Shown here: one piece after another, positions 1 through 18,790 of the stretch | Layout of the letters: every line of letters starts with the position of its first letter | How positions within the stretch are numbered: the first letter of the stretch is position 1 | IMG/VR virus record: IMGVR_UViG_3300026519_000539 | Location: 1-32,388 of that record | DNA length: 32,388 nucleotides | Direction: 5' to 3' (one strand) | From: a virus | The notes under the pieces: generated by a model | Seen by the model: only the letters and a program-made list of their open reading frames with translations | Told to the model about the DNA's origin: nothing | Databases searched by the model: none | Made by a program: the position numbers and the translations under genes

Positions 1-1205
1 GCATCTGTAGAGTAGGCGGTGCCTGACATTACCGACTTTGGTTTCAATCGACGAATCTCGCCATCATTTTCTAGGTAGTCTTTCTCGAATACATCGAACC
101 GACGATCGCGACCGACCGGCTTGGCCATTATCGCTGAAAGACGGGTTGCAGCTGTCGCCTTACCCCACCGCCAACAGCCGTCAGAACCATCAGATTTTCT
201 GGGCAATATCTCGATATGGTGGGATTGGGATCGTTCGAGGGAGACAGTCCCGTCGCTTGCATCTGCGTAGAATGGGTAGAACATCTTCGGCCTAAGTTCT
301 CGTGTATCGGCCCCGCCTCGTTTCCGCAAACCCAACAGCCTGTATGCCCCAATCGCATCCCTTTCAGAAAACTCTGCAATCCTCTCGTTTGGTAGTGCCA
401 GACCGGCCTCTTCGAATTCAGACGATTTGGTGTACATCAGCAGTCGCTCGTTCGCACGAGCTATGTAGCGTTTGTCATTTCGGCCTTTTAGATTATTAAC
501 TACACACAAATCGGCTATGAAGTTCTCTTCGCCATAGATGGCATTACAAAGCGATCTAAGATTAGCGAGTTCTGTGTCATCGATACTGACAAATAGCACA
601 CCATCCTCACGGAGCAAGTTGCGGGCAAGATAAAGCCGTGGATACATCATATTTAACCACTTTGAGTGGTAGCGGCCGTCCGTGTCCGTGTTCGTCCCGA
701 ACTTGCGGCCCTCGGCGTCCACCTGCCCGGTGTACTCCAGATATGTCTGGAGGTTTTCCGAGTAGTCATCGGGGTAGATGAAGTCATTGCCCGTGTTGTA
801 GGGCGGGTCGATGTAGATCATCTTGATCTTGCCGAGGTAGGACTTCTGGAGGAGTTTGAGGACTTCGAGGTTGTCGCCCTCGATGATCATGTTCTCTGTG
901 GTGTCCCAGTTGACGCTTTCTTCAGGAGCCGGGCGGAGTGTCGCCATGCTTGGCGATTGGATGGTCTTGAAGCAGTCGGCCTTGCCGGGCCAGGTGAGGC
1001 CGAAGCGTTCCTTGCCGACATCGACCGATTCGCCCAGCGCAAGGCGCAGGCGATCGAAATCGATCTTGCCGCCCTCGGTGCGTATTTCGGGGAAGAGTCG
1101 GAGGAGTTCTTCCATCTTGTCCGCCGCGATGTCGTGCGAACGCAGGTCGAGTCGCTCGGGTTGGTCAGCGGCTGTGGTTGGTTTGGTTTCTTGGTTTTGT
1201 GTCAT
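1..1205 (-). CDS. Type III Mod-like N6-adenine DNA methyltransferase (3' end outside window)
   Basis: This reading frame starts with ATG at 1205 and stays open to the left edge, giving about 401 residues without a stop; the C-terminus lies outside the window. Residues 133-137 are DPPYN, followed by TGNDF, the catalytic motif IV of beta-class adenine methyltransferases of the type III Mod family. Residues 107-119 (IIEGDNLEVLKLL) are the usual segment just before it. The enzyme should transfer a methyl group from S-adenosylmethionine to adenine N6 in a short asymmetric site. The start overlaps the stop of the SNF2 gene by ATGA, so both are probably made from one transcript. Mod proteins are usually 550-700 residues, so roughly a third is missing. 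A Res-type helicase-nuclease would be expected downstream, but that cannot be seen. Confidence 0.93.
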   Translation of the reverse strand, partial: MTQNQETKPTTAADQPERLDLRSHDIAADKMEELLRLFPEIRTEGGKIDFDRLRLALGESVDVGKERFGLTWPGKADCFKTIQSPSMATLRPAPEESVNWDTTENMIIEGDNLEVLKLLQKSYLGKIKMIYIDPPYNTGNDFIYPDDYSENLQTYLEYTGQVDAEGRKFGTNTDTDGRYHSKWLNMMYPRLYLARNLLREDGVLFVSIDDTELANLRSLCNAIYGEENFIADLCVVNNLKGRNDKRYIARANERLLMYTKSSEFEEAGLALPNERIAEFSERDAIGAYRLLGLRKRGGADTRELRPKMFYPFYADASDGTVSLERSQSHHIEILPRKSDGSDGCWRWGKATAATRLSAIMAKPVGRDRRFDVFEKDYLENDGEIRRLKPKSVMSGTAYSTD

Positions 1206-4096
1206 ATCAGTTGCCATCGTATGGTGAAGAGGTGGGTGTGTTCGGCGGTTTGCTCGAGCCGCTGGGCGATTTCGTCAAGGAGGGCGTCCTTCTGGTGGTC
1301 GATGTCCCGGCTGGCTTGGTCAAAGGTCCGCCACGCCTCGTCTCGCTTGGTTTCGAGTGTGCGGACGGCCCGCTGTCGTTCGAGTTTTTCGGGGAGCGTG
1401 CCAGCGAGACGGGCTGCCTTGCGGGCATCCTTGAGTTCGAGGTCGAGGCGGTCGAGTTCGGACTTGAGCGAGTTTCGTCGGTCCTCGGCCCAGCGATCGA
1501 GCTTGTCCATCTCTTCGTCGAACCAGTTGCCGCTGCGGGCTGTCTGTTCTTCGAGCAACTGCTGACGCTGGTTCGCAGCGGCAGTGGCGAGACGCTCGGT
1601 GATGACAGTTGGTGCCACGGTGTCCGCAATGATGCGTCCCGGCAGGTCGAAGAAGCGTCTGCACTGAGAGGAATCGAGCTCGGTGCCGTCATCGGTGATC
1701 CCCGTGAGCAGCAGGTGGTCCTCGGCTTCGAGCGCCTCCATCGTGAACCGCGAGCAGGTCAGCCAGCCGGATTGACCAACGAGGGATTTGAGAATGGCGA
1801 TGTTCTTCCCCGCACCGGTGTAGTCGAAGGCGATCTCTGCTGGCGGGGTTGAGAGTTCGCGGCCGAGCCCAAGCACACGCTGCGCCAGCGGATGCCCGAT
1901 GCGATAGGTGTTGGCATCCTCTACATTTTTGGCAAGGCGGTACGGACCGGAATGGATGGTTTCGCCGGGGAATGGATTGGTGTGCAGCGTGAAGGTGTAC
2001 TGCCCATTGTCCTCGAAGTGGGCATGGTCCTTGAGCACATGGCCAGTGAGATGCCAGAGACGCTCGTTGAATCGATCAAGGGCGTCACTGGCCTGGATGC
2101 GCACTTTCTCGATGACATCCTGATCGAAGTTATCGAGAAGCTTTTCGCGTGCGTCTCGCTGTTTGGTTTCGATCTGTTCTTCCAGGTCGTGTTGAAGCTG
2201 GTCAAACTCGAACTGAATCTGTTCGCCGGAGCGGCACTTCTGGTAGATGTCGGCGATGCGTTTTTCGAAGTCTACACCGGACTCGACAGCGCCAAGAACC
2301 TCGTCGCTGGCACCGAAGACGCCGTTGAAGAGCGTAAACTTCTCATCGAGCAGCTCATAGACACGCAGATCGGCGGCGTTCTTCTTGTTGAGAAAGTTGA
2401 CAACCACTACATCGTATTTCTGGCCGTAGCGGTGGCAGCGGCCGATGCGCTGCTCGATGCGCTGAGGATTCCAGGGCAGGTCGTAGTTGACGACTAGGTT
2501 ACAGAACTGGAGATTGATGCCCTCAGCGGCGGCCTCGGTGGCTATGAGGATCGAGGCGTGGTCGCGGAAATGTTCGACGAGTGCCTGGCGTACATTGGCA
2601 GCACGAGAGCCCGAGACCTTGTCCGTTCCTTCGTGGCGAGCAAGCCACTGTTGGTAGATATCCTTGGACATAGGATCTGAGTTGGTGCCATTGAAGAGCA
2701 TGACTTTGCCCTTGAACTCGGTCTGTTCCAAGAGATTGAACAGGTACTCCTGCGTGCGCCGAGATTCCGTAAAGATGATGGCTTTCTGATGGATCGCGGC
2801 GGCAGAGTCGCCTTCGCGGGCTTTGGAAGCCGCCTCAAACCCACGACGGAGCGCGGTGAGCAGTACTTCACCCTTCGAGTTCTTGAGAATGGACTGGGCA
2901 AGGGCGTGAAATTTTCTGAGTTCGGCGGCCTCCTGTTTGAGCCCTTCTAGTTCTTCTGGCGAAAGAATGTTGCCACTCTCTTGGTGGTTGTCGTCAGATT
3001 CGTCCTCTCCCCATTCGTCTGCCAGTTCATCGTACTCTTCCCAGTTCTCCCCAAGATCATCCGGTGGTGAAGCAATGGCTTGAGCATCCTTGGCTGCCTG
3101 CTCAAGACGCTGCGCCATGCCTTCAAGTGTGCCAGCAATGGCAAAGGTAGATGAAGCGAGTAACTTGCGGAGGATCAGGGTGATGAGATTGCGTTGACCT
3201 GCTGGGAGGGCATAGAGAGATGGTCGCTGGAGATAGTTGGAAACCAGGTCGTAGAGGTGCTGTTCGTCGGCAGATGGAATGAATTCCTGCACGAGTGCAT
3301 GTCTATTTGTGAACCTGACATATTCGAGCACATGCCTGCGAAGTGTGCGTTTGCAGATAGGTTTGAGACGATCCTTGAGCGCGTTGAAGTCGGCGTCATT
3401 GCCGAGTCGAGCAAAGCGTGCCTTGTAGCTGTCAAGGTCGCCGAATGCGTAATCGTCGATGATACTCACGAGGCCGTAAAGCTCGAGGAGCGAGTTCTGA
3501 AGCGGCGTGGCAGTCAGCAGTACCTTCGGGAACGGTGCTATTGCCTTCTTGATGGAATTAGCGATCTTGCTTGATGGTTTGTAGACATTGCGCAAACGAT
3601 GGGCCTCGTCGATGACGACGAGATCCCACGGTGTCTGTGCGACATAGGGTTCCTTCGAGCGAGCAAACTGGAATGAGCAAAGGATGATCGCGTCTTGCTC
3701 AAAAGGATTGAGATTGCCTTCACGAATCGATTTGTTGAAAGTTCGTGCCTCGAGGATGACCGAGGGCAGGTGGAACTTGTCGGCTAGTTCCTGGCTCCAT
3801 TGTTTGCGAAGATTCGCGGGAGCAATGATGAGCATCTTGCGTTTGCGCTCTGCCCAGCGTTGTGCGATGAGTAAGCCAGCTTCGATTGTTTTGCCAAGGC
3901 CGACTTCGTCGGCAAGAATTGCACCCTTGGAAAACGGGCTTTGAAATGCAAACAGAGCTGCTTCGACCTGATGAGGGTTGAGATCCACTTGGGCATCGGC
4001 AAGAACCGACACGAGTTTCTCGACGCTGTCCGAAGCGCAGCGTTTCTGGAGTTCGTGTGCGAAGAGACGAGCATGATGATCGGTCAGAATTGTCAT
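1202..4096 (-). CDS. SNF2/RapA-like DNA helicase of a defence operon
   Basis: A 964-residue superfamily 2 ATPase. Walker A DEVGLGKT is at residues 63-70, DEAH at 163-166 and TATPLQN at 195-201. The C-terminal helicase half carries EGINLQFCN and the arginine-finger motif QRIGRCHRYGQ. The last 250 residues include long charged helices. I chose ATG 4096 rather than the upstream possibility at 4126: it overlaps the stop of the HTH gene as ATGA and has GAGGAG a short distance upstream. SNF2 proteins of this layout are often found beside type III Mod-like methyltransferases, where they probably translocate along DNA for restriction; the immediately following gene here is such a Mod. It is not obviously DrmD of DISARM, because no drmA, drmB or drmC gene is visible. 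Confidence 0.93.
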   Translation of the reverse strand: MTILTDHHARLFAHELQKRCASDSVEKLVSVLADAQVDLNPHQVEAALFAFQSPFSKGAILADEVGLGKTIEAGLLIAQRWAERKRKMLIIAPANLRKQWSQELADKFHLPSVILEARTFNKSIREGNLNPFEQDAIILCSFQFARSKEPYVAQTPWDLVVIDEAHRLRNVYKPSSKIANSIKKAIAPFPKVLLTATPLQNSLLELYGLVSIIDDYAFGDLDSYKARFARLGNDADFNALKDRLKPICKRTLRRHVLEYVRFTNRHALVQEFIPSADEQHLYDLVSNYLQRPSLYALPAGQRNLITLILRKLLASSTFAIAGTLEGMAQRLEQAAKDAQAIASPPDDLGENWEEYDELADEWGEDESDDNHQESGNILSPEELEGLKQEAAELRKFHALAQSILKNSKGEVLLTALRRGFEAASKAREGDSAAAIHQKAIIFTESRRTQEYLFNLLEQTEFKGKVMLFNGTNSDPMSKDIYQQWLARHEGTDKVSGSRAANVRQALVEHFRDHASILIATEAAAEGINLQFCNLVVNYDLPWNPQRIEQRIGRCHRYGQKYDVVVVNFLNKKNAADLRVYELLDEKFTLFNGVFGASDEVLGAVESGVDFEKRIADIYQKCRSGEQIQFEFDQLQHDLEEQIETKQRDAREKLLDNFDQDVIEKVRIQASDALDRFNERLWHLTGHVLKDHAHFEDNGQYTFTLHTNPFPGETIHSGPYRLAKNVEDANTYRIGHPLAQRVLGLGRELSTPPAEIAFDYTGAGKNIAILKSLVGQSGWLTCSRFTMEALEAEDHLLLTGITDDGTELDSSQCRRFFDLPGRIIADTVAPTVITERLATAAANQRQQLLEEQTARSGNWFDEEMDKLDRWAEDRRNSLKSELDRLDLELKDARKAARLAGTLPEKLERQRAVRTLETKRDEAWRTFDQASRDIDHQKDALLDEIAQRLEQTAEHTHLFTIRWQLI

Positions 4097-4305
4097 CTCG
4101 CAAACTTCTCCTCGTGATCCAGCCAACGATCAATGGTCTCCTTCCGAAACCGCCAATGCCTCCCCACCTTCTGCCCCGGCACTCGACCCTCTTGGGCCAG
4201 TTTGTAGAGCGACGACTTCGAGACCTGCAGGTAGGCTGCGAGGTCGTCGATGGTCATCACCTCCGGCGTCGGAGATGGCGGGTTGCCCTGACGGTCACCA
4301 GACAT
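4093..4305 (-). CDS. Small excisionase/MerR-type helix-turn-helix protein
   Basis: A 70-residue protein with one HTH_17-type domain at about residues 15-65 (MTIDDLAAYLQVSKSSLYKL, then GRVPGQKVGRHWRF and a final WLDHEE helix). This is the fold of phage excisionases and small DNA-binding regulators. It is the first gene of the minus-strand operon and overlaps the SNF2 start by ATGA. The obvious guess is an autoregulator or DNA-targeting subunit of the SNF2/Mod system. An excisionase for a neighbouring element is an alternative, but coupling to the helicase makes that less likely. Confidence 0.85.
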   Translation of the reverse strand: MSGDRQGNPPSPTPEVMTIDDLAAYLQVSKSSLYKLAQEGRVPGQKVGRHWRFRKETIDRWLDHEEKFAR

Positions 4306-4582
4306 ACGGAGAGTATGATAGCCGTTGCTGGTGGTGGCTGTGTGTTGTTCGGGGTGTGAACTGACATGATGGTGTCAGCGGTGTCTGGTGGCTGAGTACA
4401 TGGCCTCATCCACTTCTTCGCCGGCTTCATGCGGCGAATAGGCCTAAGCCCTGTGCCTGCAACGGGATAGGTCGGCAGGCAGGTCCCGTTGTGATCGGCA
4501 GATCAATGGCACAACAGGGCAATCAACCACATCCGACGCATCGAGATGCAGATGTCCGACAAAAGGGCGATACGATTTGTTC
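4306..4582. promoter_or_regulatory. Divergent intergenic region between defence operon and GIY-YIG gene
   Basis: 277 bases between two divergent starts, so promoters for both directions must lie here. Two inverted repeats stand out. CTGACA/TGTCAG is at 4361-4366 and 4373-4378 with a six-base spacer, an operator-like layout. CAACGGGA/TCCCGTTG is at 4460-4467 and 4484-4491 with a 16-base loop, and GCCTGC/GCAGGC (4455-4460, 4475-4480) overlaps it as an alternative pairing. No convincing -35/-10 pair could be assigned by eye. Confidence 0.5.
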
Positions 4583-5491
4583 ATGAATGGCAGAACGATT
4601 CGGATTCATCTCGTCGACGGCTCTCCAACGGGCATGCTGGCTGCTGAGATCATCAACTGGACCGGCAAGGTACTCGTTTCACCGAGGTCGCATCTCGCAT
4701 CGCTCGCCAAACGCGACGAAGCGAAGCGCACCGGCGTTTACTGCCTTGTCGGGAGTGACCCAGACAACCGCAACTTGGAGCGTGTGTATATCGGCGAGAG
4801 CGATAAGGTTCTGTCACGGCTGGCCCAGCATGACAAGGACGATTCGAAGGACTTCTGGACTCGAACGATCATTGTCACCAGCAAGGATGAGAACCTGACG
4901 AAGTCTCATGTGCGATTCCTGGAATCTCGGCTCATCCAGATGGTCAGTGAGGCTGGGAGAGCGAAACTCGCCAACAACACCGCACCTCCTACACCCGTCT
5001 TGCCGGAGGCCGATGTGGCGGACATGGACTACTTCCTTGGTCAGATCCAGATGATCCTGCCTGTGCTCGGTTTCAGTTTCCTTCAGCCCAAGCCGTCATT
5101 TGCGGTAGAAGCTCAACCAGATACTGCAGCATCACCCATCTTCCAGTTCAAAGCGGTCGGTGCAACAGCTGAGGCGCGAGAAATCAATGGAGAGTTCGTC
5201 GTGATGAAGGGGTCGACCGCACGAAAACAAGGAACACCCTCTTGGGATACCTACAAAACCCTCCGCGATGATCTTGTTTCTGAAGGCAAGCTTGTTGATG
5301 CTGAGAATCCAGAATACTTGGTCTTCGCAGACGATGTTCCATTCAAAAGTCCAAGCGCTGCGGCAACTGTGGTGCGTGCAGGAAATACCAACGGGCGAAA
5401 AGAGTGGAAGGAAATCACAACCGGAAAGAGTTACGCGGAGTGGCAGGAACTCCAGCTCAGGCTGGCGGGCATCGATGACTCTGAAACCTAG
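4583..5491 (+). CDS. GIY-YIG nuclease family protein
   Basis: A 302-residue protein from ATG 4583; a TTG two codons upstream (4577) is possible but less attractive. The N-terminal third carries the GIY-YIG signature: GVY at residues 51-53, YIG at 69-71, and a conserved FLES segment whose Glu (about residue 114) would bind the catalytic metal. The C-terminal half ends with a DUF4357-like segment (FVVMKGSTARKQ, then KSPSAAATVV and a final WKEITTGKSY). This architecture is widespread in bacteria and often sits near restriction-modification genes; its substrate is not known to me. It is divergent from the HTH-SNF2-Mod operon and convergent with the last phage gene, with only 58 bases between the stops. 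Confidence 0.85.
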   Translation: MNGRTIRIHLVDGSPTGMLAAEIINWTGKVLVSPRSHLASLAKRDEAKRTGVYCLVGSDPDNRNLERVYIGESDKVLSRLAQHDKDDSKDFWTRTIIVTSKDENLTKSHVRFLESRLIQMVSEAGRAKLANNTAPPTPVLPEADVADMDYFLGQIQMILPVLGFSFLQPKPSFAVEAQPDTAASPIFQFKAVGATAEAREINGEFVVMKGSTARKQGTPSWDTYKTLRDDLVSEGKLVDAENPEYLVFADDVPFKSPSAAATVVRAGNTNGRKEWKEITTGKSYAEWQELQLRLAGIDDSET

Positions 5492-5549: not shown

Positions 5550-6893
5550 CTATTTCTGGTTGTCGCTGCCCGAGCCGCTTATCGCACTGCTCGCTTGGGT
5601 CAGGTTTGAGCCGCCGGATGACGATGAGGAGCCGCTGCCGGATGAACTCCCGCTGAAGCTTGAGCCGCTGGATTTGCTGCCGGAGCCTGAACCACTGCCG
5701 CTACCACTTCCAGAACCAGATCCCGAGCCGCCGGAGGTGTTGCCGATGCCGCCGGAGAGGCCGGGCAGATCGTTGTGGACCCAGACGCCATCAGCCAAGT
5801 AGGTGTTGGTGCCGGGGACGGTGATCGAGGCGGTGCGGACGCGGCCGGGGATGCGTTCGATCGTGGTGATCGGTTCCTCATTGAGATCGGGCGTGACGAG
5901 CAGGTCGCCGATGCGGAGCAGGTCGGCGGAGCAGAATCCCCAGGCATCGCCGCGGCGGATGAGGAAGGGGTGCTCGAAGGTCGCTTTGATGCGGCTGTTG
6001 ATGACGAAGAAGCCGTCGTGCTCGCCGAGGGTGATTTGCGAGACGGTGGCCGGTTGGATGCGGGCGTCGTCGAGGCCTTCGGTGGATTGCCAGTCGTATT
6101 GGGCGCGGAAGGGGGCATCGACTTCGAGCCCGGGGACAGCCATCGAGAGGATCTGGTCGCCCGGCTGGAGCGATTCGATGGGAACGCGCCGGGTGGGTGT
6201 GACATGGACGAGCGTGCCGAAGAGTAAGCAGTTGGAGCCGGAACCGCCACTTGATCCGCCACTCGATCCACCAGATGAGCCGCCGGAACTGCCGCTGCTT
6301 GAGCCGCTCGATGAGCCACTGGAAGACCCGCTCGATGAACTCGAAACCGACGAGCTGGAAGCGTTGGATGACCCGCCGCTTGAGCCACCACCGGACGAGC
6401 CACCGCCGCTCGAACCTCCTCCCGAAGAACCACCGCCTGACGAACCCGGTCCCGATGATCCGGGGCCGGATGAGCCCGCGGACGAACCGGGGCCGGAATC
6501 CGACGAACTGACGGCCGAACTCATCTGCGAACTGCCAGTCGAATCACCGCTCGAACCACCAGTTGACCCGCCGCTGGGCGAACTCGACAGGCCGCTCGAT
6601 GAGACGGAGCCTTCCGTGCTCGATGCGACAGACGACATGCTTGATGATGGGCTGGACGAACTGCTCGATGCTGAACTCGATGGCGAGCTCCATTCCGTCG
6701 ATGTCCAGCTTGGGGTTGAACTGGTCCAGCTGTCGGTTTCGGTCGAGCTCGATGGCATCGTGCTTTCGGTGCTGCTGCTCATCGACGACACCGACTCGGT
6801 CGGCGTGGAGAGCTCGCTCGATCCGCCGCCGTCCGGGGCTCGGCCGGTCGCCCAGACGGGCAGGAAGAGGTAGTAGCGTGTCGGCTCGCTCAT
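5550..6893 (-). CDS. Ser/Gly-rich virion-associated protein with an intein-like Hint domain
   Basis: 447 residues in three parts. Residues 1-26 are a short unique head. Residues 27-220 are almost pure Ser/Gly/Thr with GGSS and GSSS repeats. Residues 222-374 are a Hint domain, and 375-447 are again Gly-Ser repeats. In the Hint domain Cys222 starts block A (CLLFGTLV), T305 and H308 form block B TxxH, and the domain ends TYLADGVWVHN with His373-Asn374. Those are the residues used for N-S acyl shift and asparagine cyclisation. The residue after Asn374 is Asp, not Cys/Ser/Thr, so normal protein splicing is not expected; cleavage at either end, as in bacterial intein-like domains, is more likely. 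The start overlaps the DUF115-like gene by ATGA, making this the last gene of the phage operon. A tail or surface fibre role is inferred from position only. Confidence 0.85.
   Translation of the reverse strand: MSEPTRYYLFLPVWATGRAPDGGGSSELSTPTESVSSMSSSTESTMPSSSTETDSWTSSTPSWTSTEWSSPSSSASSSSSSPSSSMSSVASSTEGSVSSSGLSSSPSGGSTGGSSGDSTGSSQMSSAVSSSDSGPGSSAGSSGPGSSGPGSSGGGSSGGGSSGGGSSGGGSSGGSSNASSSSVSSSSSGSSSGSSSGSSSGSSGGSSGGSSGGSSGGSGSNCLLFGTLVHVTPTRRVPIESLQPGDQILSMAVPGLEVDAPFRAQYDWQSTEGLDDARIQPATVSQITLGEHDGFFVINSRIKATFEHPFLIRRGDAWGFCSADLLRIGDLLVTPDLNEEPITTIERIPGRVRTASITVPGTNTYLADGVWVHNDLPGLSGGIGNTSGGSGSGSGSGSGSGSGSGSKSSGSSFSGSSSGSGSSSSSGGSNLTQASSAISGSGSDNQK
5589..5750 (-). repeat. Gly-Ser coding repeat tract after the Hint domain
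   Basis: Residues 382-435 of the Hint protein are mostly Gly-Ser dipeptide repeats, mirroring the tract before the domain. The Hint domain is therefore flanked on both sides by flexible linkers. Confidence 0.85.
6234..6815 (-). repeat. Ser/Gly coding repeat tract before the Hint domain
   Basis: Degenerate short tandem coding repeats (mainly Ser-Ser-Gly-Gly and Gly-Ser-Ser-Ser units) fill residues 27-220 of the Hint protein. At DNA level this gives recurring ccgccggat- and gagccg-like words and produces long spurious open frames on the plus strand. Confidence 0.85.
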
Positions 6894-7810
6894 GCCTTGG
6901 CCTCCGCGTGTTGCTTCGGTTTATTCGCGGGCTTGTTGGCGGGTGTGTACCAGCCCTGTGTGCGCACGGGCTTGGCGCACTCGGCCGAGGCGGCGGCGAT
7001 CGCGTCTTCATAACGCATCCGCTCGAACACGCTCAATGCGCTACCCGGCGAGCAGTTGACCACGCGGAACCTGTGCTTCTCGAAGTGCGGCAACAATGCC
7101 TCGAAGCGTCGGCTTAACGCGTCGTAGAGCGCGTTGTTGTGTCGGATGGCGGCTGCCTCGCGGGTCTCGTCGAAGGCGTACTTGCGATCGCTGGCCATCT
7201 TGAAGTCGCAGCCGAGCAGGTAGACCGTGCGGAAGCCAAGGTGGTGCAGCAGACGCAGGGCGGCGAGCATGACGCTGCGTTTTCCCTTGATGCCGAGCGA
7301 ATCCGCGTGCTTGCCTTCGTTGCCCCACGGCACCGTGTCGCCAGTGAGGAATCGCTGATGATCGAAGTAGTTGCCGCGACGGTAGAACAAGACGCTGGGC
7401 ATCTGGCTGACATGGAAGGCACTTGGCTTCAAGGAGCCGTCGGGGGTCTGGATGCGCAGTTTGCGCACGCGATGGCAGACCGGCACGAACTTCAAGATGC
7501 CCGGGTCCTTCCAACCCGTGTCGATGAATCGGCCCGGGTCATCGACGCAGGTCCAGAGTGTCGGGCGGTGGATCGTCCAGGCGTTGTTGACGCCCATCGT
7601 GACGATGCCGCGTTGGTTGAGCAGGGAGAGGTTGAGTTGGTTGAGCGACGGACCCGACAGCATCAGGAACGCGGACCGCCCGCGGTAGAAGTTCGCCATC
7701 GAGACGGAGTCGAAGTCGGCGGTGTAGAGACGCAGGCCATTGCGGGCGGGGGCCCGGTTCTTGAGGCCGTGCTGGAGGGCGATGATGTCGGACTGGTTGG
7801 GGCGGTTCAT
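6890..7810 (-). CDS. DUF115-like (glycosyltransferase-type) phage protein
   Basis: 306 residues from ATG 7810; the frame is open further upstream, but that part overlaps the methyltransferase gene and has no family resemblance. Residues include FLMLSGPSLNQL near the N-terminus, GVNNAW soon after, and later SVMLAALRLLHHLGFRTVYL followed by LGCDF. This pattern matches DUF115/MptE-like proteins, which in several bacteria glycosylate flagellin or surface proteins with nonulosonic sugars. The gene is ATGA-coupled to the SAM methyltransferase upstream and to the Ser-rich Hint protein downstream, so a virion or cell-surface target is plausible. The actual substrate is unknown. The last 25 residues are a Lys/Pro/Ala-rich tail. 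Confidence 0.7.
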   Translation of the reverse strand: MNRPNQSDIIALQHGLKNRAPARNGLRLYTADFDSVSMANFYRGRSAFLMLSGPSLNQLNLSLLNQRGIVTMGVNNAWTIHRPTLWTCVDDPGRFIDTGWKDPGILKFVPVCHRVRKLRIQTPDGSLKPSAFHVSQMPSVLFYRRGNYFDHQRFLTGDTVPWGNEGKHADSLGIKGKRSVMLAALRLLHHLGFRTVYLLGCDFKMASDRKYAFDETREAAAIRHNNALYDALSRRFEALLPHFEKHRFRVVNCSPGSALSVFERMRYEDAIAAASAECAKPVRTQGWYTPANKPANKPKQHAEAKA

Positions 7811-8370
7811 GGGCGACCCTCCGCCAGGAATCTCCCGGTGATGTAGCGGCCCTCGGCGCGTGCATTGTTGACGATGCCGACACGGGCGATGCGGTCGAGC
7901 CACCATCGCATCGGCTGCACGGTCGGATGGAGGTTCTCGCCTTGCACAGTGATCCGGCTCGGGCGTGTGCTGATCGAGAAGCAGAACCACGCCTTGGGGC
8001 GAGCCACGCGGCGCATCTCGTCGAGGACTGGGTTCACATCCTGCGGCAGCAGGTGCTCAAGCGCATCGAAGCTCGTCACCACATCGGCCACGCCATCGAG
8101 CAGCCCGGTGTCGTGCATGGGCCTGGCGATGTCGGCTTCGGGGAAGGCGAAGTCGATGCCGAGGCCGTCGAAGCCGAGTCGACGGAGGTGATGGATGAAG
8201 TCATTGCGGCCGCAGCCGAAGTCCACGACCAATCGAGGCTTCCAACGCTGCACGATTCGGACGGCGTACCTACCGTGGTTGGTCGAGCCGTACGACGAAC
8301 CGGGGCGTGACGCCAACTCGACATACTTGCTTCGTTCGTGTGCGCGTTGTTGGGCGAGGGCATTGGTCAT
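7807..8370 (-). CDS. Class I SAM-dependent methyltransferase
   Basis: 187 residues from ATG 8370. VVDFGCGRNDF is the glycine-rich SAM-binding loop (motif I), followed by GLGIDFAFPEADI with its acidic ribose-binding residue, and DVVTSFDALEHLLPQD as motif IV/post-I. The fold is Methyltransf_11-like, used for small molecules, sugars or proteins rather than DNA, as no NPPY or PC motif is present. Both ends overlap neighbours by ATGA. In context it may modify a sugar or the Ser-rich virion protein made two genes later; that is inference. Confidence 0.85.
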   Translation of the reverse strand: MTNALAQQRAHERSKYVELASRPGSSYGSTNHGRYAVRIVQRWKPRLVVDFGCGRNDFIHHLRRLGFDGLGIDFAFPEADIARPMHDTGLLDGVADVVTSFDALEHLLPQDVNPVLDEMRRVARPKAWFCFSISTRPSRITVQGENLHPTVQPMRWWLDRIARVGIVNNARAEGRYITGRFLAEGRP

Positions 8371-9410
8371 CCGCCACCTCCCGCCCCGCCGGGCACAATC
8401 AAGTTGAACTTGCGATCGCCGTCGGCCGGGTCGGCGATCTCGATGCAGCTCATCGCCTCGAAGACCCACACCGGGTTGCCCTTCGTGTCGCGCTCGCAGG
8501 TCAGTTGCACCGTGACACCGATCGGGATCGGTGCGAGGCGGGTTTCGAGCGACCGCGCAGGCGGGCAGTTGTGCAGCACGCCGGGCAGATCGCACACCGG
8601 GCCCACGCCGAGCAAGCCCTCGAAGCCGGTGCCGGGCACGGAGTCGTCGCAGTGGTGCGCTTCGAATCGGTTGATCGCCATGCGGGCCGGGTCTTCGCCA
8701 CCGCCGGGGGATTGGGACGAGAGGCCATCGGGCACGGGCACATAGCGCAGGTAGGTCTCGCTGCCCGGGTCGCCGTCGAGACGGGCTTCGACCCACGGAT
8801 ACCGCCAGCGGTTGGCTTCGGTCGGGATGAGTTGCCCCTCGCCGAGCACAGCCGTGATGCGCCCGAGCGACGGACGTCCGAGTTCGATCACCGCCCACTT
8901 CTCGCCGGTGCCGGGTTCTTTCCAGAGGATCGGCGCACCGCCCAGCGGCGAGGTCGTCAGCACAGTCTCGTCGGCCTTGAGTTCGCAGGTTGTGTCGCTC
9001 TCGTCGATGACCGTGATCTTGGCGGGCGTGGTGCCGGAGAGCACGCAGCGCCCGAGATCGCCCGGCTGGATCGCCTGCTGGGCCACCACGAACGACAACG
9101 GCGGCGAGTCCTCGGTCGCCAACTCACCGATCAACGGCGTTCGTCCCTGGAAGGTCCGCTCCTGATCGCTGTCGCCCGGCTCGATGAGCGGGCCCGCGAT
9201 CGCCAGTGCGTGGTAGGCGGGCAGTTCGTCGGGTGTGTCGTTGCGCACCAACACGATGCCGCGGTGTAATGCATCCGGGCGCGGGTTGCCCGTCGTGTTG
9301 CGCTCGCGCGATTGGTGATCCACCGCCGCATCGATGAAGGCGTTGTACGCCCGCGCCGGGATGACCAGCGGCTGCCCGGTTCGGACTTTGGTGAAGGCGT
9401 CGCCGTTCAT
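8367..9410 (-). CDS. Putative distal virion/tail protein
   Basis: 347 residues from ATG 9410, which overlaps the previous stop by ATGA. The sequence is a mix of beta-type segments (RGIVLVRNDTPDELPAYHAL, PLSFVVAQQAIQPGDLGRCV, WAVIELGRPSLG) of the sort seen in phage tail-fibre or baseplate-associated proteins, ending in a Gly-rich tail (GGAGGGG). Cysteines are concentrated in the C-terminal third. I do not recognise a named family. Position after the tape measure and before the modification cassette supports a tail-tip or fibre role. Confidence 0.6.
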   Translation of the reverse strand: MNGDAFTKVRTGQPLVIPARAYNAFIDAAVDHQSRERNTTGNPRPDALHRGIVLVRNDTPDELPAYHALAIAGPLIEPGDSDQERTFQGRTPLIGELATEDSPPLSFVVAQQAIQPGDLGRCVLSGTTPAKITVIDESDTTCELKADETVLTTSPLGGAPILWKEPGTGEKWAVIELGRPSLGRITAVLGEGQLIPTEANRWRYPWVEARLDGDPGSETYLRYVPVPDGLSSQSPGGGEDPARMAINRFEAHHCDDSVPGTGFEGLLGVGPVCDLPGVLHNCPPARSLETRLAPIPIGVTVQLTCERDTKGNPVWVFEAMSCIEIADPADGDRKFNLIVPGGAGGGG

Positions 9411-10216
9411 ATGCCCAGCCCTCCGAAGTTGCCATCGTCGTAGACCCGCTCGACATACGCCGCGATGGGTTGTTTGACGATCGTGCCCGAGCCGGTGTCC
9501 TCGGCGTCGGCGTAGCGCACCCAGAGGTACTCCCAGCCTTGTTTGTTGATACCGATGATCGGGCCGACTGACAAACCCGTCACATTGGGGCTGGCCGCAA
9601 AGCGGAAGGTGATCTCCCAATCGTCGTCGGCACCGGTGCCTCGCCGTGAGCCGGTCGCGCCGAGGAAGAGCAGTTCGCCCGCAGCGAAGCCACGGAACGA
9701 GCCGTTGTTTACCTTGCCGGTGAGGTTGAAGAGTGTGCCCTTGTACTGGTCGGTGACCTGCATTGCGGGCAGGTAGTGCGTCTCGCTGAACTGGTACACC
9801 GGCACGGTAATGTCCACGCCGTTGACGCTGTCTGCTGTGACGCCGATCGCGCCCTGGAAGTTTGGAGCCGTCGAACCCGAGGCGGCGTAGGTGCCGACGG
9901 TGGCTTTGCTCTGGGTGATGTGCTGCGTGCCGCCGCCGGTGTCGAAGTTGAACGAACTCTCGCCCGTCTGCGGCGGCGATGACAGCTGATTGGGCGCATA
10001 TCGCACCGTCGCGTCCCAGTGCTCCGGCCCGACGGGTTCGACCGCCACCGCCTGACGCGGCAGGTTGTCGTAGGTAGTCGGGCTAGCCGATTCGACCGCG
10101 GTACGGGCCGCGAGGTCGTCTTCGGTGCCGCGCACGGTGTAGCCGAGCTCGGCCGACGGATTGTCGCCCGTGGTCGATCGCCTGCTCTCAAACTTTTCGG
10201 TCACCGTGATGGGCAC
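9407..10216 (-). CDS. Putative virion structural protein downstream of the tape measure
   Basis: 269 residues. The start is GTG at 10216, preceded by an AAAGGAAA-type ribosome-binding site, and the stop overlaps the next gene by ATGA. The protein has no signal peptide or membrane segment and looks beta-rich with a central Gly/Asp/Asn-rich part (FNFDTGGGTQHITQSK, TADSVNGVDITVPVYQF, GWEYLWVRYADAEDTG). It probably forms part of the distal tail, judged by position after the tape measure gene. The fold could not be assigned. Confidence 0.65.
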   Translation of the reverse strand: MPITVTEKFESRRSTTGDNPSAELGYTVRGTEDDLAARTAVESASPTTYDNLPRQAVAVEPVGPEHWDATVRYAPNQLSSPPQTGESSFNFDTGGGTQHITQSKATVGTYAASGSTAPNFQGAIGVTADSVNGVDITVPVYQFSETHYLPAMQVTDQYKGTLFNLTGKVNNGSFRGFAAGELLFLGATGSRRGTGADDDWEITFRFAASPNVTGLSVGPIIGINKQGWEYLWVRYADAEDTGSGTIVKQPIAAYVERVYDDGNFGGLGI

Positions 10217-10240: not shown

Positions 10241-12583
10241 TTATGCGAAGGTCAGGCCACCGGTCTGGGCGGCGGTGACAAGTTGTTTGGTGTTCCTGGC
10301 GGTTTGCTCGCTCGCCTTGGCCGTGCGTTCGGCGACCGGATCGCTGGCCGCGAGACTCTGCACGGCCAGCGCGTTGAAGGTGCCTCGAACGGTCGTCTTT
10401 CCGGAGATGGTGTTTCCCAGCCCGGCAAGTTGTTTCTGGATGCGCGCGACCAGACTGTCAGCGGAATCGGATGCGTTGGGATCGGTGTTCTGCGCGTCCT
10501 TGCGTTCTTTGGCAGCCTTGGCGATCGCTTCGTCAAGCTTCTTGCGGGCCTCATCGAGCGCCTTCTGCGTTTCTTCGATCTTGGTGTTGGTGTGATCGTC
10601 GAGCTTCTTCTGTGCCTCGTCGAACTGCCGCCCGATCTCGGCGAGTGTGGCTTCGTTTTCTCTGGCGGATTGCTCCCGTTGACGCTGTCGTTTCTGATCG
10701 CGTTGAGCGAGTGCCTGCCGGGCCTGCGATTCGATTTCAGCCAGGCGTGAATCGAGCTGATCGTCCACCGCCTTCTTCGCGGCCTTGACATCGAGCGATG
10801 AATCGAAGAGGCCTTGGATTTCAAGCATCCGCTTGGCGACGAATGAGGTCGCGGTTTCCCAGATTTTCTTGAACCCTCTGGCGAAGTTCGTCCAGGTCTT
10901 GGAGAGGAACGAAGTCGTTTCGATCCACGCGATCTCGATGGCGTGGAAGCCGATCTGGGCGGCCGCCAACGCCCCGAACCACATCTGCTGGGCGGTGGAG
11001 ATAAAGAACCGTTTGGCCTCGAGCCATGCCGCGTTGATGGCCGCGATGCCCTTCTCCCAGACGAGTTTGAGCGAGAGCCAGAGGATCTGGGCAGCGAGTG
11101 CGACATCACCAGCGGCCAACGCATCAGCCATCCCGCCGACGACCTTCGTCACCGTCTCCCTGAGCTTGCCGAACTGCTCACCCAGCCATGACAGCGCCTC
11201 CGCCCCGGCACCGCTGGTGGTCAGGATGGCGGCACCGATACCGACAACAGCTGCGGCAACCAGTCCGATCGGCGAGAGCAGCGCGGCGAGCACCGTGCCC
11301 ATGATCCCGATCGCTGCGCCGACGCCGGTGATGATCGCGGCGAGCGAACCGAACACCACACCGATGGCGACGATCGCAACCCCGGCGATGACCAACGCGA
11401 TACCAATCCCGATCACGGCGACGGTCACCTTGAGGATGGTGACGACAAGTTGGCGGTTCTGATTGATGAGATTGGTGATCCAGCCCGCGATCTTCGTGAT
11501 CGCATCGGCTGCCCGGCGGACTGGTTTCTGGATCGCCTCGCCGATAGCAATGGCGATGCCTTCGACCGCCGAAAGCAATTTACGGAACGAGCCGCCGATG
11601 CCCGCGTCCATTTCCTCGGCTGTCTTGACCGCGAGCCCAGCGGAGTTGGTGATCTTGTCACGGAGTTCATCGAACGCCTCAGCCGACGATGCGAGCTTCA
11701 ATGCAGCGGCTTGCCCTCGACCAAACAGCGTCTCGAAGATGGACAGCCGTTGGGCTGAGCCGAGGCCTTTGGTCGCTTTCGCCAGATCGTTGATGATGTC
11801 GGCGAGCGGGCGAAGGTTGCCCTGTGCATCGACGGCTTCGATACCAATCTTCCGCAGATCGGCTTGCTTGGATTCATTGGAGAGGTTCTTGTAGGCCCGG
11901 GCCAGTGCGTTGCCCGCGAGCGATCCCTTGATGCCGTTGTTTGCCAGCACTGCGATCGCGGCGGCGGTTTCCTCGATGCTCGCGCCCGCCTCATTGGCGA
12001 TCGGGGCGACGGGTTTCATGGCCTCGAACAAATCTTCGAGCGTCTGGGCGCTGCCGTTGGCGGTGGCCGTGAGTACATCCGTCACGCGGGCCATCTGCGC
12101 GACGGGAAGATTGAACCCACGCAAGGCCGCCCCGGCGATCTCGGTCGCTCGGGGAAGTTCGGTGCTTGTCGCACGGGCCAAGGCCAGCACGGCTTCGGTG
12201 CTCGCCAGGATCGCCTCAGGCTTGAATCCTGCTCGACCGAGTTCGGTCATCGCTTCTGCGACCTGACCAGCCGTGAATGAGGTTGTCCGCCCGAGGCGTT
12301 TGGCTTCCTCGCGGAGTGACTGGAACTGTGCTTCAGTCGCCCCGGTGACCGCTCGTACCTGACGCATCCGATCATCGAATCCGGCAAACACACGGGTCGA
12401 TATGGCAAAGCCCGCGGCCAATCCGGTGCCGATTCCGGTCAGGCGTGCGCCGATCCGCTGAACCGATGAGCCGAACGCCTTGAGCCGTTTCTGGGCGCGG
12501 TTGAGCCCACGGACAAGTCTGTTGTCGTTGGCGTAGAGCTCGATGTAAGCCGCCCCTGCCCGGATGCCGCGTGCGGATGCCAT
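10241..12583 (-). CDS. Phage tail tape measure protein, TP901 family
   Basis: 780 residues. The N-terminal region matches the PhageMin_Tail/TP901 core: FAGFDDRMRQVRAVTGATEA, TTSFTAGQVAEAMTELGRAG and GFNLPVAQMARVTDVLTATA. Residues about 385-455 are strongly hydrophobic with several potential membrane-spanning helices (VTVAVIGIGIALVIAGVAIV). A long charged coiled coil (about 590-710, rich in Glu, Lys, Gln) follows. The protein sets tail length and is ejected during infection. At this length a fairly short tail tube (around 100 nm) would be expected. The stop is TAA and the next gene begins 25 bases later. Confidence 0.93.
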   Translation of the reverse strand: MASARGIRAGAAYIELYANDNRLVRGLNRAQKRLKAFGSSVQRIGARLTGIGTGLAAGFAISTRVFAGFDDRMRQVRAVTGATEAQFQSLREEAKRLGRTTSFTAGQVAEAMTELGRAGFKPEAILASTEAVLALARATSTELPRATEIAGAALRGFNLPVAQMARVTDVLTATANGSAQTLEDLFEAMKPVAPIANEAGASIEETAAAIAVLANNGIKGSLAGNALARAYKNLSNESKQADLRKIGIEAVDAQGNLRPLADIINDLAKATKGLGSAQRLSIFETLFGRGQAAALKLASSAEAFDELRDKITNSAGLAVKTAEEMDAGIGGSFRKLLSAVEGIAIAIGEAIQKPVRRAADAITKIAGWITNLINQNRQLVVTILKVTVAVIGIGIALVIAGVAIVAIGVVFGSLAAIITGVGAAIGIMGTVLAALLSPIGLVAAAVVGIGAAILTTSGAGAEALSWLGEQFGKLRETVTKVVGGMADALAAGDVALAAQILWLSLKLVWEKGIAAINAAWLEAKRFFISTAQQMWFGALAAAQIGFHAIEIAWIETTSFLSKTWTNFARGFKKIWETATSFVAKRMLEIQGLFDSSLDVKAAKKAVDDQLDSRLAEIESQARQALAQRDQKRQRQREQSARENEATLAEIGRQFDEAQKKLDDHTNTKIEETQKALDEARKKLDEAIAKAAKERKDAQNTDPNASDSADSLVARIQKQLAGLGNTISGKTTVRGTFNALAVQSLAASDPVAERTAKASEQTARNTKQLVTAAQTGGLTFA

Positions 12584-13831: not shown

Positions 13832-14254
13832 TCAGATCCATGCGGGCGCGGTACCGGCGTAGGTGACTTTGGCGGTCACCGACACAGTCAGCGCTTCTTC
13901 GAGTTGCTCGCTTCGGCTGAAGTTGGTGATCGAGAAGTCGGCCTCGAGCCCGGACCCGGCCGCCCCGTCGAGCACCTGCAGGCCGATCTCGGTGTTGTTG
14001 AAGAAGGCGTCCTTGATGGCGGTGAAGCCCGCGTCGGCGGTGTCCCACACCATCTCGAACTCGACGCTCGCTTCCTTGAGCGTGCCAACCGTCGCCCGCC
14101 AGCCCGCGTTGGCGCGTGTCGTGATGTCGGCCTCGCCGGTTTCGAGCGAGAGCGTCACATCCTTGACATTGGCGAGTTCGGTCCACGAGCCGCCGCCACC
14201 GACGCCTCCGGTCTTGTAGTTGAGCACGGCGTCCATGCCGAGTTTGATGGCCAT
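13832..14254 (-). CDS. Phage major tail tube protein
   Basis: 140 residues from ATG 14254, with AGGAG six bases upstream. The sequence has the tail-tube pattern: GMDAVLNYKTGG at the start, ELANVKDVTLSLETGEADIT then TRANAGWRATVGTLKEASVE, and a C-terminal beta segment EALTVSVTAKVTYAG. Beta-rich, no Cys. It should polymerise into the tail tube. Location directly before the chaperone and tape measure genes fits. The family resembles TP901-1/gpV-type major tail proteins. Confidence 0.9.
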   Translation of the reverse strand: MAIKLGMDAVLNYKTGGVGGGGSWTELANVKDVTLSLETGEADITTRANAGWRATVGTLKEASVEFEMVWDTADAGFTAIKDAFFNNTEIGLQVLDGAAGSGLEADFSITNFSRSEQLEEALTVSVTAKVTYAGTAPAWI

Positions 14255-16187: not shown

Positions 16188-17984
16188 TTACGCTTCACCC
16201 TTCATGCGGACGCCACCACGGGGCTCCCCGTGCGCGCCCCGAGCGGAGATATCGCGTTCGAGGCAGGCCAGGGCATCGGTGGGCAAGTAGAGCGTGCCGC
16301 GCCTGGCGTGCGGGTCGACTTCGATGCGATCGACGAAGGCGCGGACGAGCCGCCTGGATTCGAGCGTGGCCGAACCTTCTGCAAGGATTGTGTCGATCCG
16401 GCGGAACCGGTCTTCGGCCCACGCGCGCAGGTCCGCCTCGGTGAACGGCACGGGCGACGCCACGCGCTTGCGGGCCAGGTGATCCCGCATGGCGTCGCGG
16501 CGCTTGGTCAGGTCGGCCAGCGTCGCCTTGAGTTCGTCCAGGTCGGTGAAGGCCGGGTCGGCGAGCATGGCGACCATCGCCTTGATGCGGCGACTCAGGG
16601 CGTCGATGTCGCGTTGCGTGGGGCCGGATTCGTCATCGCCGGTGTTTCGGTTCCCGGCCATTGCGGCCTTCACGAACGCGTCCACCGCCTCGGCGGCTCC
16701 GTCGTGGTCGCCCAGAACGATCTCACGGATCTTGCCGACGACGAACGCATCGAGGGCATCGGCCGGGATGTTGGTGCAGACGCAGACGGCCTTCCCGCCC
16801 CGGTTGTACCCGGCGTCGGTGTAGTAGCGATACTTGACACGATCGCCGCCGCTGGTCGAATTGATCTTTTTTTGAAGGAAGTGGTGCCCGCAGTTCGTGC
16901 AGAGGATCAGGCCCGACAGCAGCGATCGCTGAACGGGTTTGGCCAAGCCGCCGAGATCGCGCCGATCCGCGACGGCACGGCGGGCCTTCTCGAATGTCTC
17001 CGGCGACACAATCGGCTCGTGGACGCCCTCGACGACGAACCAGTCTTCCTGAGGATTATGCTTTTCGACCCGGCCGCGCTTGGGCCGGAGCGATCCGTCG
17101 CGGGCCACGCCGTTGATTTTGCCCATCGTCCGCCGGTTCCACGCGATCGCGCCGCGGAAGACGGGGTTGGCCAGGATGCGGCTGATCGTGCTGCTTTGCC
17201 AGTAATGACCGTCCAGCCTCGGCACGCCATCTTCGTTGAGGCGGCGGGCGATGTGGTGGTAGCCATAGCCCGCGATGCACTGCTCGTAGATGCGCCTGAC
17301 GACGGCCACGCGGTCGGGCGAGCTGGGCACGAAGCGCACGATGTCGCTCTTGGCCTTCTTGACGGTTTCGCCGGTGTTCAGGATGCGGATGAGCTTGCCG
17401 TCGGGCCCGAACTCCTGCTTGCGGCCGTCGGGCAGCCAGCGGAAGGTCCGCAGCACCTGGCCTGAGGCGGTGCAGTGCTGCTTGTCGTAGCCGTAGGGCG
17501 GCTTGCCGCCGGGCGCGCAGTGCTTGTCCATGATGTGCGAGATCGTGCCGCGGATGCAATCTCGCGACAGCTTCACGCTGTATTGGCGGGCCTGCCACGA
17601 CTTCACGCCCTGGAGCAGCTCGCCTTCCTCGCCATCGGGTATGCCCTCGGCGCAGAAGATCGCGTCCACCCCGGCGACATGCAGACGGTGCAGGTAGAAG
17701 CCCGTCTCGTTCGTGCCGCCGCGCGAGAAGCGGGAGATGTCGTAGCAGAGGACGGCAGCGAACCCGCCACCGCCCTCCGCATCCGCGATCATCCGCTCGA
17801 ACGCGACCCGGCCCTTGGCGCTGGTGCCGCTGATGGCGTCGTCGATATACCACCGCTCGATGCGGTAGCCGTTCTCCTTGGCCCAGCGCTTGACGAACGC
17901 CTGCTGGTCGGGGATCGACCGCTCCTGCATGTCCGTCGAACGCCGGGCGTAGCCGACGGCCCTGATGGTTCGCTTACGGCTCAT
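16188..17984 (-). CDS. Large serine recombinase (integrase)
   Basis: 598 residues from ATG 17984. The resolvase domain occupies residues 7-150 with catalytic Ser16 in [10 protein letters not shown] and further active-site arginines in SRFSRGG. The recombinase domain (about 160-345) contains [10 protein letters not shown] and the conserved [20 protein letters not shown], then [16 protein letters not shown] zinc ribbon follows (Cys362, Cys365, with Cys401/Cys403), then a coiled-coil region and a C-terminal tail. This is the complete domain set of large serine integrases, which integrate and excise phages and other elements at short att sites. The start overlaps the HARE-HTH gene by ATGA. Its end lies near the proposed element junction. 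Confidence 0.95.
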
Positions 17985-18394
17985 TTGCGGCCCGCCTTCG
18001 CTGCGGTGAACAGGCCGCGATCGACCTTCTTGAAGCGGGCGTCTTTGCCCTTGGCTGCGATCTCGCGGATGATGGCGGCGTAGAGCGTGGCCGATGGCGT
18101 CTTGCCGCTGGTCTGCCACAGGCCCTTGGCGATGGCCTGCTCGACGATCTCCTTGCAGGTCATCGGCTTCTTGGACTTGGCCAGCATTTCGGCAGCGATG
18201 TCGAGGATGCCCTTGCGTTTGGCGGCGGGCTTGGCCTTGGGCTTCGATCCGCCCTTGGCGGCGGGTTTGGCCCGTGTCGCGGCCTTGGCCGTCTTGGCCT
18301 TCGGGGTCGCCTTGGGCGTGCCCTTGGCCTTGGTCGCGGCCGTGGTGGCCCGGGTGGTCTTCTTCGCGGTCTTCTTGGTCGCCTTCGTGGTCAT
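17981..18394 (-). CDS. HARE-HTH protein with histone H1-like basic tail
   Basis: 137 residues from ATG 18394, with AAGGAG seven bases upstream. Residues 1-61 are Lys/Ala/Thr/Pro repeats ([20 protein letters not shown]) like bacterial histone H1-like proteins. Residues 62-131 form a winged helix of the HARE-HTH type ([20 protein letters not shown], then [20 protein letters not shown] and [10 protein letters not shown]). HARE-HTH domains are known next to nucleases and DNA-modifying enzymes and in RNA polymerase delta. Being ATGA-coupled to the serine recombinase it may bind DNA during recombination, possibly as a directionality factor, or shield DNA. This is inference. Confidence 0.85.
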
Positions 18395-18661
18395 GGTGTT
18401 CTCCTTGGAAAAGGCCTCGTTTCGCCCGGCGAACGCCGCCGGATCGAGGCACAGTGAGGCGGCAAGGACGGCCGAAGGCAAGGCATGTCCGCGAGGAATC
18501 TGCGAATGTGGGGAACTTCGCCGCAATGTGGGCAACCGGGCCGACCGGGGCCGAATCCGGTCGCCAAAAGCGGACCGGACAGGCGCACGAAAGTCTGTCT
18601 ATATTGGCTGCTGTTCCCGCACGCCTCACCGGCAAGCCGTCGCCGGGAAGGAACCATCGCC
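18395..18661. other. Non-coding stretch upstream of HARE-HTH/recombinase operon
   Basis: No gene could be supported here. It must contain the promoter for the HARE-HTH/recombinase pair; an AATATAG element on the minus strand around 18598-18606 is a possible -10, without a good -35. Two related words, GCGAATGTGGGGAAC (18502-18516) and GCAATGTGGGCAAC (18523-18536), resemble GCGAATGTCGCCAAG at 18662 and may belong to the repeat field to the right. Confidence 0.5.
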
Positions 18662-18790
18662 GCGAATGTCGCCAAGTTGGCCAACTTGCGCCCCTGCGCA
18701 ACATGCACAACTTTGAACAACTTTGCGCACCTTTGAATCCACGCCCTCGGGTAACTTGCGCATGTTGCGCAAAGTTGCGCTAAGTTGTTC
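18662..18790. repeat. Iteron-like field of direct and inverted repeats next to the RepA-like gene
   Basis: Several repeat types are packed in about 130 bases. A perfect 16-base palindrome CAAGTTGGCCAACTTG is at 18673-18688. CTTTG occurs at 18711, 18721 and 18731, exactly ten bases apart, in the context ACAACTTTG twice then CACCTTTG. On the other side TTGCGC recurs at 18756, 18765 and 18775 with TTGTTC at 18785, again about ten bases apart and in inverted orientation. TGCGCAACATGC (18695-18706) has an exact inverted copy at 18760-18771. Ten-base phasing puts the copies on one face of the helix. This looks like a replication origin, a partition site or an operator bound by the adjacent RepA-like or HARE-HTH protein. 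Confidence 0.75.

Follow-up and report, generated by a model that had tools for sequence, protein, structure and literature searches.

To our knowledge, little is understood of what bacterial intein-like (BIL) domains do in nature. Cleavage is the main reaction of type A BILs, but in those without a nucleophile at the +1 position the flanks can still be ligated through attack of an amine on the Cys1 thioester (PMC4031507), and cleavage products dominate in the known BILs (PMC4031507; PMC7664689). BIL2 reportedly joins its upstream part, as an isopeptide, to a lysine of a downstream partner (PMC8616854). The BILs described in bacteria sit in variable, non-conserved proteins (PMC7765530), whereas in the family presented here both the host proteins and the position are fixed. 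We found no description of Hint or BIL domains in phage tails in the open-licence literature.

We have examined a 32,388-bp virus record (IMGVR_UViG_3300026519_000539), hereafter the window, that is, the whole stretch of DNA analysed. It comes from a phage of planctomycete bacteria whose tail operon is closed by a gene for a Ser/Gly-rich protein with an internal Hint domain. Our main reading, to which we give a probability of about three in four, is that the tail protein carries a BIL-like domain that is active in self-processing.

A Hint gene closing the tail operon

The Hint-containing ORF lies on the minus strand (6893-5550), starts with ATG, has a ribosome-binding site (GGAGG) upstream and encodes 447 aa. 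Its start overlaps the stop of the glycosyltransferase-like gene in an ATGA. Reading along the operon, the tape-measure gene is followed by two conserved genes, the methyltransferase gene, the glycosyltransferase-like gene and, at the distal end, the Hint gene:

13832-14254, minus strand: major tail protein
10241-12583, minus strand: tail tape-measure protein
9407-10216, minus strand: conserved gene between the tape-measure and FKKVR genes (locus comparison)
8367-9410, minus strand: 'FKKVR' protein (MNGDAFTKVRTG...), a relative of which in other phages bears the same Hint-plus-Lys cassette C-terminally
7807-8278, minus strand: SAM methyltransferase, in the same operon as the Hint gene
6890-7801, minus strand: glycosyltransferase-like gene (PHROG 4603, sialyltransferase), directly upstream of the Hint gene
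5553-6893, minus strand: the 447-aa Ser/Gly-rich protein with the Hint domain; the stop codon is 5550-5552

A preliminary description of this DNA had placed the domain at the distal end of a phage operon, and the comparison of loci bears this out. Among the 101 loci with enough upstream DNA, a homologue of the same tape-measure gene was found upstream of the Hint gene in 95 and the glycosyltransferase in 86. The host protein is probably a structural component of the tail, either a tip or a fibre appendage. The structure model of the FKKVR protein had a pLDDT of 52, too low for a structure search.

Other parts of the window carry further genes. Amid the structural genes, an integrase with a DNA-invertase-type match (16188-18710, minus strand) is likely a large serine recombinase. 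Two separate genes (20854-22737 and 27462-29594, both on the minus strand) each match the major head and protease protein family PHROG 4523, and a DNA methyltransferase-like gene lies between them. Positions 3-4126 (minus strand) hold a Type III-like DNA methyltransferase, truncated where the contig stops, and an SNF2 helicase with DrmD as best match; the genes of this region may be defence cargo carried by the end of the prophage. SNF2 genes similar to that of the window are also present near the Hint gene in loci L036, L034, L004, L063, L067 and L129. Convergent with the Hint gene, positions 4577-5491 (plus strand) encode a DUF4357 protein with a strong match to the PADLOC candidate PDC-S14 (E 3e-118).

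Identity and conservation of the domain

Inside the Hint-containing protein, we delimited the following parts and residues:

6819-6893, minus strand: conserved N-terminal module MSEPTRYYLFLPVWATGRAP, with which the gene following the glycosyltransferase opens in almost every homologue
6231-6818, minus strand: Ser/Gly-rich N spacer, residues 26-221, ending in the conserved Asn221 (-1)
5772-6230, minus strand: Hint domain, residues 222-374 (153 aa), without homing endonuclease
6228-6230, minus strand: Cys222, block A nucleophile (Cys1), invariant
5970-5981, minus strand: T305-F-E-H308, block B TxxH, T and H invariant
5772-5777, minus strand: His373-Asn374, block G C-terminal HN, invariant
5769-5771, minus strand: Asp375, +1 position, a non-nucleophile (D, T, A, Q, Y or S across the family)
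5553-5771, minus strand: Ser/Gly-rich C tail, residues 375-447
5655-5675, minus strand: K407-S-S-G-S-S-F, conserved K-x-S-G-S-S motif with an invariant Lys

Cys222, T305-H308, His373-Asn374 and Asp375 are exactly where the preliminary description, which gave no strand, had put them. The Ser/Gly spacers that it reported on both sides of the domain are equally clear, with 103 Ser and 46 Gly in the N-terminal 220 aa and a C tail made mostly of Ser and Gly.

When the protein was searched as a single sequence, the Pfam models Intein_splicing, PT-HINT and Hint_2 gave weak matches below the cut-off (E 0.01-0.06), and TIGR01443 intein_Cterm scored 16.0 bits against a cut-off of 15.6. A profile built from an alignment of 15 homologues (A1) and searched against the PDB returned the C. 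thermocellum BIL domain (2lwy) as the best solved relative, with an E-value of 1e-6. The AlphaFold model of the Hint domain (pLDDT 86) matched 2lwy in Foldseek at E 1.4e-8, along with Tetrahymena BIL2 and many inteins, and VIA-align scored BIL and intein structures at Z 17-18, with 130-137 residues aligned; the leading matches of the predicted structure in both programs were inteins, BILs and Hedgehog. Thus, despite the weak single-sequence scores, the identity of the domain is secure because of the family alignment and the predicted structure. These results confirmed the presence of a Hint fold whose closest solved structures are BIL domains (2lwy; Tetrahymena BIL2, 6y75), in agreement with the BIL-like layout noted earlier.

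Searches of viral contigs and bacterial genomes yielded 124 usable distinct homologues. Their named source genomes are mostly Phycisphaerales or other Planctomycetota, as prophages and viral contigs, with a few other labels that are possibly binning errors. All 124 have Cys1, both fixed residues of the block B TxxH and the closing His-Asn, so that the catalytic Cys/His/Asn, whose loss in homologues had been named as evidence against the domain, are kept throughout; the invariance of TxxH and HN is somewhat biased, since the search patterns included one or the other, while Cys1 was no part of the patterns used in two of the searches. The -1 residue is Asn in 122 of the 124. A comparison of the +1 residue, also proposed at the outset, gave D in 114 homologues, T in 4, A in 2, Q in 2, Y in 1 and S in 1 (n = 124), and this variability means that +1 is not a required nucleophile. 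With a pattern-free profile, the domain turned up in 51 of the 301 genomes from this order, with as many as 7 copies in one genome. Values of dN/dS, computed without three GS-variant loci, were 0.08-0.18 against relatives at 91-95% identity; on these ratios, the Hint domain is under purifying selection and, taken with the invariant residues, it is no chance match. In block F, aligned by eye, Asn (N363, 124/124) appears to stand where His is usual, a replacement that might slow Asn cyclisation. One further homologue (L105:7434-8695) has its frame broken into two overlapping ORFs and is probably a pseudogene or a sequencing error.

The domain has the traits of the Hint superfamily (the fold, and the block A nucleophile with block B TxxH in 124/124) and two traits of type A BILs (a C-terminal His-Asn in 124/124 and no required Cys, Ser or Thr at +1). 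With type A BILs such as 2lwy it shares the fold, Cys1, TxxH, the C-terminal HN, a variable non-nucleophilic +1 and a size of ~150 aa; unlike them, it resides in a phage tail protein, between Ser/Gly spacers and upstream of an invariant Lys motif. BIL2 of Tetrahymena BUBL1 (6y75, 6tmm) is a top structural match, tied with others (VIA Z 18.2). The flanks of BIL2 in the ciliate are ubiquitin-like domains, to which no relation of the flanks of the window Hint was seen. The C flank of the window Hint holds an invariant Lys within a conserved motif, which is a candidate for an acceptor of the BUBL type. PT-HINT pretoxin domains belong to the same superfamily and release a C-terminal toxin, none of which was seen here.

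The lysine motif, the cassette and Hint-less homologues

The invariant Lys motif of the tail is a new observation, absent from the preliminary description. After the HN, the C tails of the homologues are Ser/Gly-rich, vary in length between 16 and 145 aa and contain Lys in every case (124/124). The strict K-x-S-G-S-S motif occurs in 120 of the 124 tails and near-variants in the remaining four; Arg never takes the Lys position. In tails with a single Lys, that Lys is the motif one in 65 of 66, and the motif is present in 10/10 clusters at 60% clustering. The N spacer is devoid of Lys in all 99 homologues of the PVWAT type. No K-x-S-G-S-S was found among the six complete Hint-less proteins of this type. 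We rejected chance due to Ser/Gly composition as the origin of the motif, because shuffled tails contained it in only 4.5 of 124 on average (maximum 10), compared with 120 of 124. We also rejected a general trait of the Ser/Gly proteins of these phages: there were 16 non-Hint ORFs with the motif, and the distinct ones listed are not Ser/Gly-rich tails, most of them looking like wrong-frame readings of the tape-measure region. The link between Hint and lysine draws on few evolutionary events, given that the independent losses of Hint are few, perhaps one.

Most homologues start with a conserved 'YYLYIPVWATG' segment. In others, the spacer, Hint, spacer and Lys motif form a cassette at the C-end of a relative of the FKKVR product (window 9410-8367), and the Lys motif is retained on this different host protein. 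In loci L268 and L269, the FKKVR-type protein is divided over two adjacent ORFs, both of which close with a cassette. On the tree of Hint domains, the host protein must have changed three times, and well-supported branches force at least two of these changes.

Hint-less homologues were sought with the upstream glycosyltransferase as bait, and six complete ones were recovered (L157, L158, L162, L163, L164 and L264), in which a short repeat-like module replaces Hint and Lys motif. A C-terminal module, 'FIEGGxEGVPPAxW', common to 32 Hint-bearing homologues, is kept in five of the six; the window protein's own tail is without it. In these five, the shared N- and C-terminal modules therefore belong to a single continuous chain, from which we infer that in the Hint-bearing form, too, the flanks should end up joined. 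The controlled release of flanking parts put forward in the preliminary description is not supported by this result, and neither flank showed a toxin or enzyme domain.

The same Hint family extends to PHROG 38766 ('virion structural protein') of Erwinia, Dickeya and Yersinia jumbo phages. Its members likewise carry a homologous Hint (about 30-35% identity) on a tail or virion protein, with a Lys (AEK) conserved after the HN; in contrast to the window protein, they have no Ser/Gly spacers and a tail of 8-10 aa, and the Hint lies, in the members read, at the extreme C-end after collagen-like repeats. On another phage contig, a related Hint is N-terminal on a large tail-tip-like protein (L023:7911-12929), and the 'large intein domain protein' of phage NCTB (L278:569-4483) has a C-terminal Hint and a short tail with Lys, and adjoins a tail fibre gene. 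Rhs-type Hint proteins occur in the same bacterial order (L270, L271, L275).

Proposed processing and its alternatives

In favour of an active BIL-like domain in a tail protein are the BIL structures as closest solved relatives, the invariant Cys1, TxxH and HN, the purifying selection, the variable +1, the constant position of the gene in the tail operon and the Hint-bearing virion proteins of the jumbo phages. The order of steps proposed here is taken from known Hint chemistry. Cys222, assisted by His308, would attack the Asn221-Cys222 bond and form a thioester, and Asn374 would cyclise, cutting the chain before residue 375, which would have no chemical part of its own. Water could then resolve the thioester, giving cleavage, or an amine could do so, giving ligation. 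We favour ligation, which would keep the N- and C-terminal parts covalently joined, with Lys407 as the likeliest acceptor through an isopeptide like that reported for Tetrahymena BIL2. This choice is made because BILs can ligate by amine attack and because BIL2 offers the isopeptide precedent; the lysine is further favoured by the frequency of its motif compared with shuffled tails, by the absence of Arg at its position, by the single-Lys tails, by the lack of the motif in the six Hint-less homologues and by its retention on a different host protein. Transfer of the Cys222 thioester to Lys407 is a tentative proposal, less likely than not. Similarly speculative is the wider model in which Phycisphaerales phages would possess an ATP-free autocatalytic cross-linking cassette (spacer, Hint, spacer and Lys motif), moved between different tail proteins. 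Its BIL would hand the Cys thioester to the lysine in K-x-S-G-S-S, on either the same chain or an adjacent one, so that Ser/Gly tail fibres become linked or branched.

Simple self-cleavage is a credible competitor, although at less than even odds. Hydrolysis and Asn cyclisation at one or both ends would leave a bare Ser/Gly stalk on the virion and free the tail; the Lys motif, which could be a docking or modification site instead of an acceptor, would then serve separately. The predominance of cleavage products in known BILs (PMC4031507; PMC7664689) and the non-nucleophilic +1 residue fit this outcome, which nevertheless leaves unexplained both the coming and going of the Lys motif with the Hint and the union of N and C modules in one chain in the Hint-less homologues.

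That same union would also be produced by traceless splicing without a +1 nucleophile, in which, after Asn374 cyclisation, the alpha-amine of Asp375 attacks the thioester and the spacers are joined into one fibre. The expectation that canonical splicing should fail at this site is sound for the transesterification route, but too strong overall, because type A BILs without a +1 nucleophile can ligate (PMC4031507) and BIL2 forms its isopeptide (PMC8616854). Traceless splicing is known for type A BILs, usually as a minor product (PMC4031507). It does not account for the Lys motif, and we consider it rather unlikely.

Some Hint domains degrade, and the apparent loss of the block F His would suit an inactive, purely structural remnant; we rejected this improbable reading on the basis of the invariant catalytic residues (124/124) and the purifying selection. 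An ordinary selfish intein that had invaded a host gene, suggested by the Hint fold and termini, was rejected as highly improbable, since there is no endonuclease, most members have no +1 nucleophile (Asp375 in the window, D in 114/124) and no empty-site homologue with a conserved extein was found, the Hint-less homologues holding a different internal module instead. The weak PT-HINT match and the Rhs-type Hint proteins of the order would point to a pretoxin release module of a polymorphic toxin, which we rejected as scarcely credible, because the C tail is low-complexity Ser/Gly of 16-145 aa with no toxin domain seen and the gene is in a tail operon.

Ligation, if true, would add a new route by which viruses cross-link their particles and would provide a compact new protein-ligation tool. 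With a BIL fixed in a tail protein of the virion, 124 relatives aligned, natural counterparts that lack the Hint and a lysine to mutate, the role of BIL domains becomes directly testable. Since the PHROG 38766 family also occurs in unrelated jumbo phages, virion proteins may undergo Hint processing more often than has been noted, and the phages described here may rely on intein chemistry for cutting or covalently joining a part of their tail.
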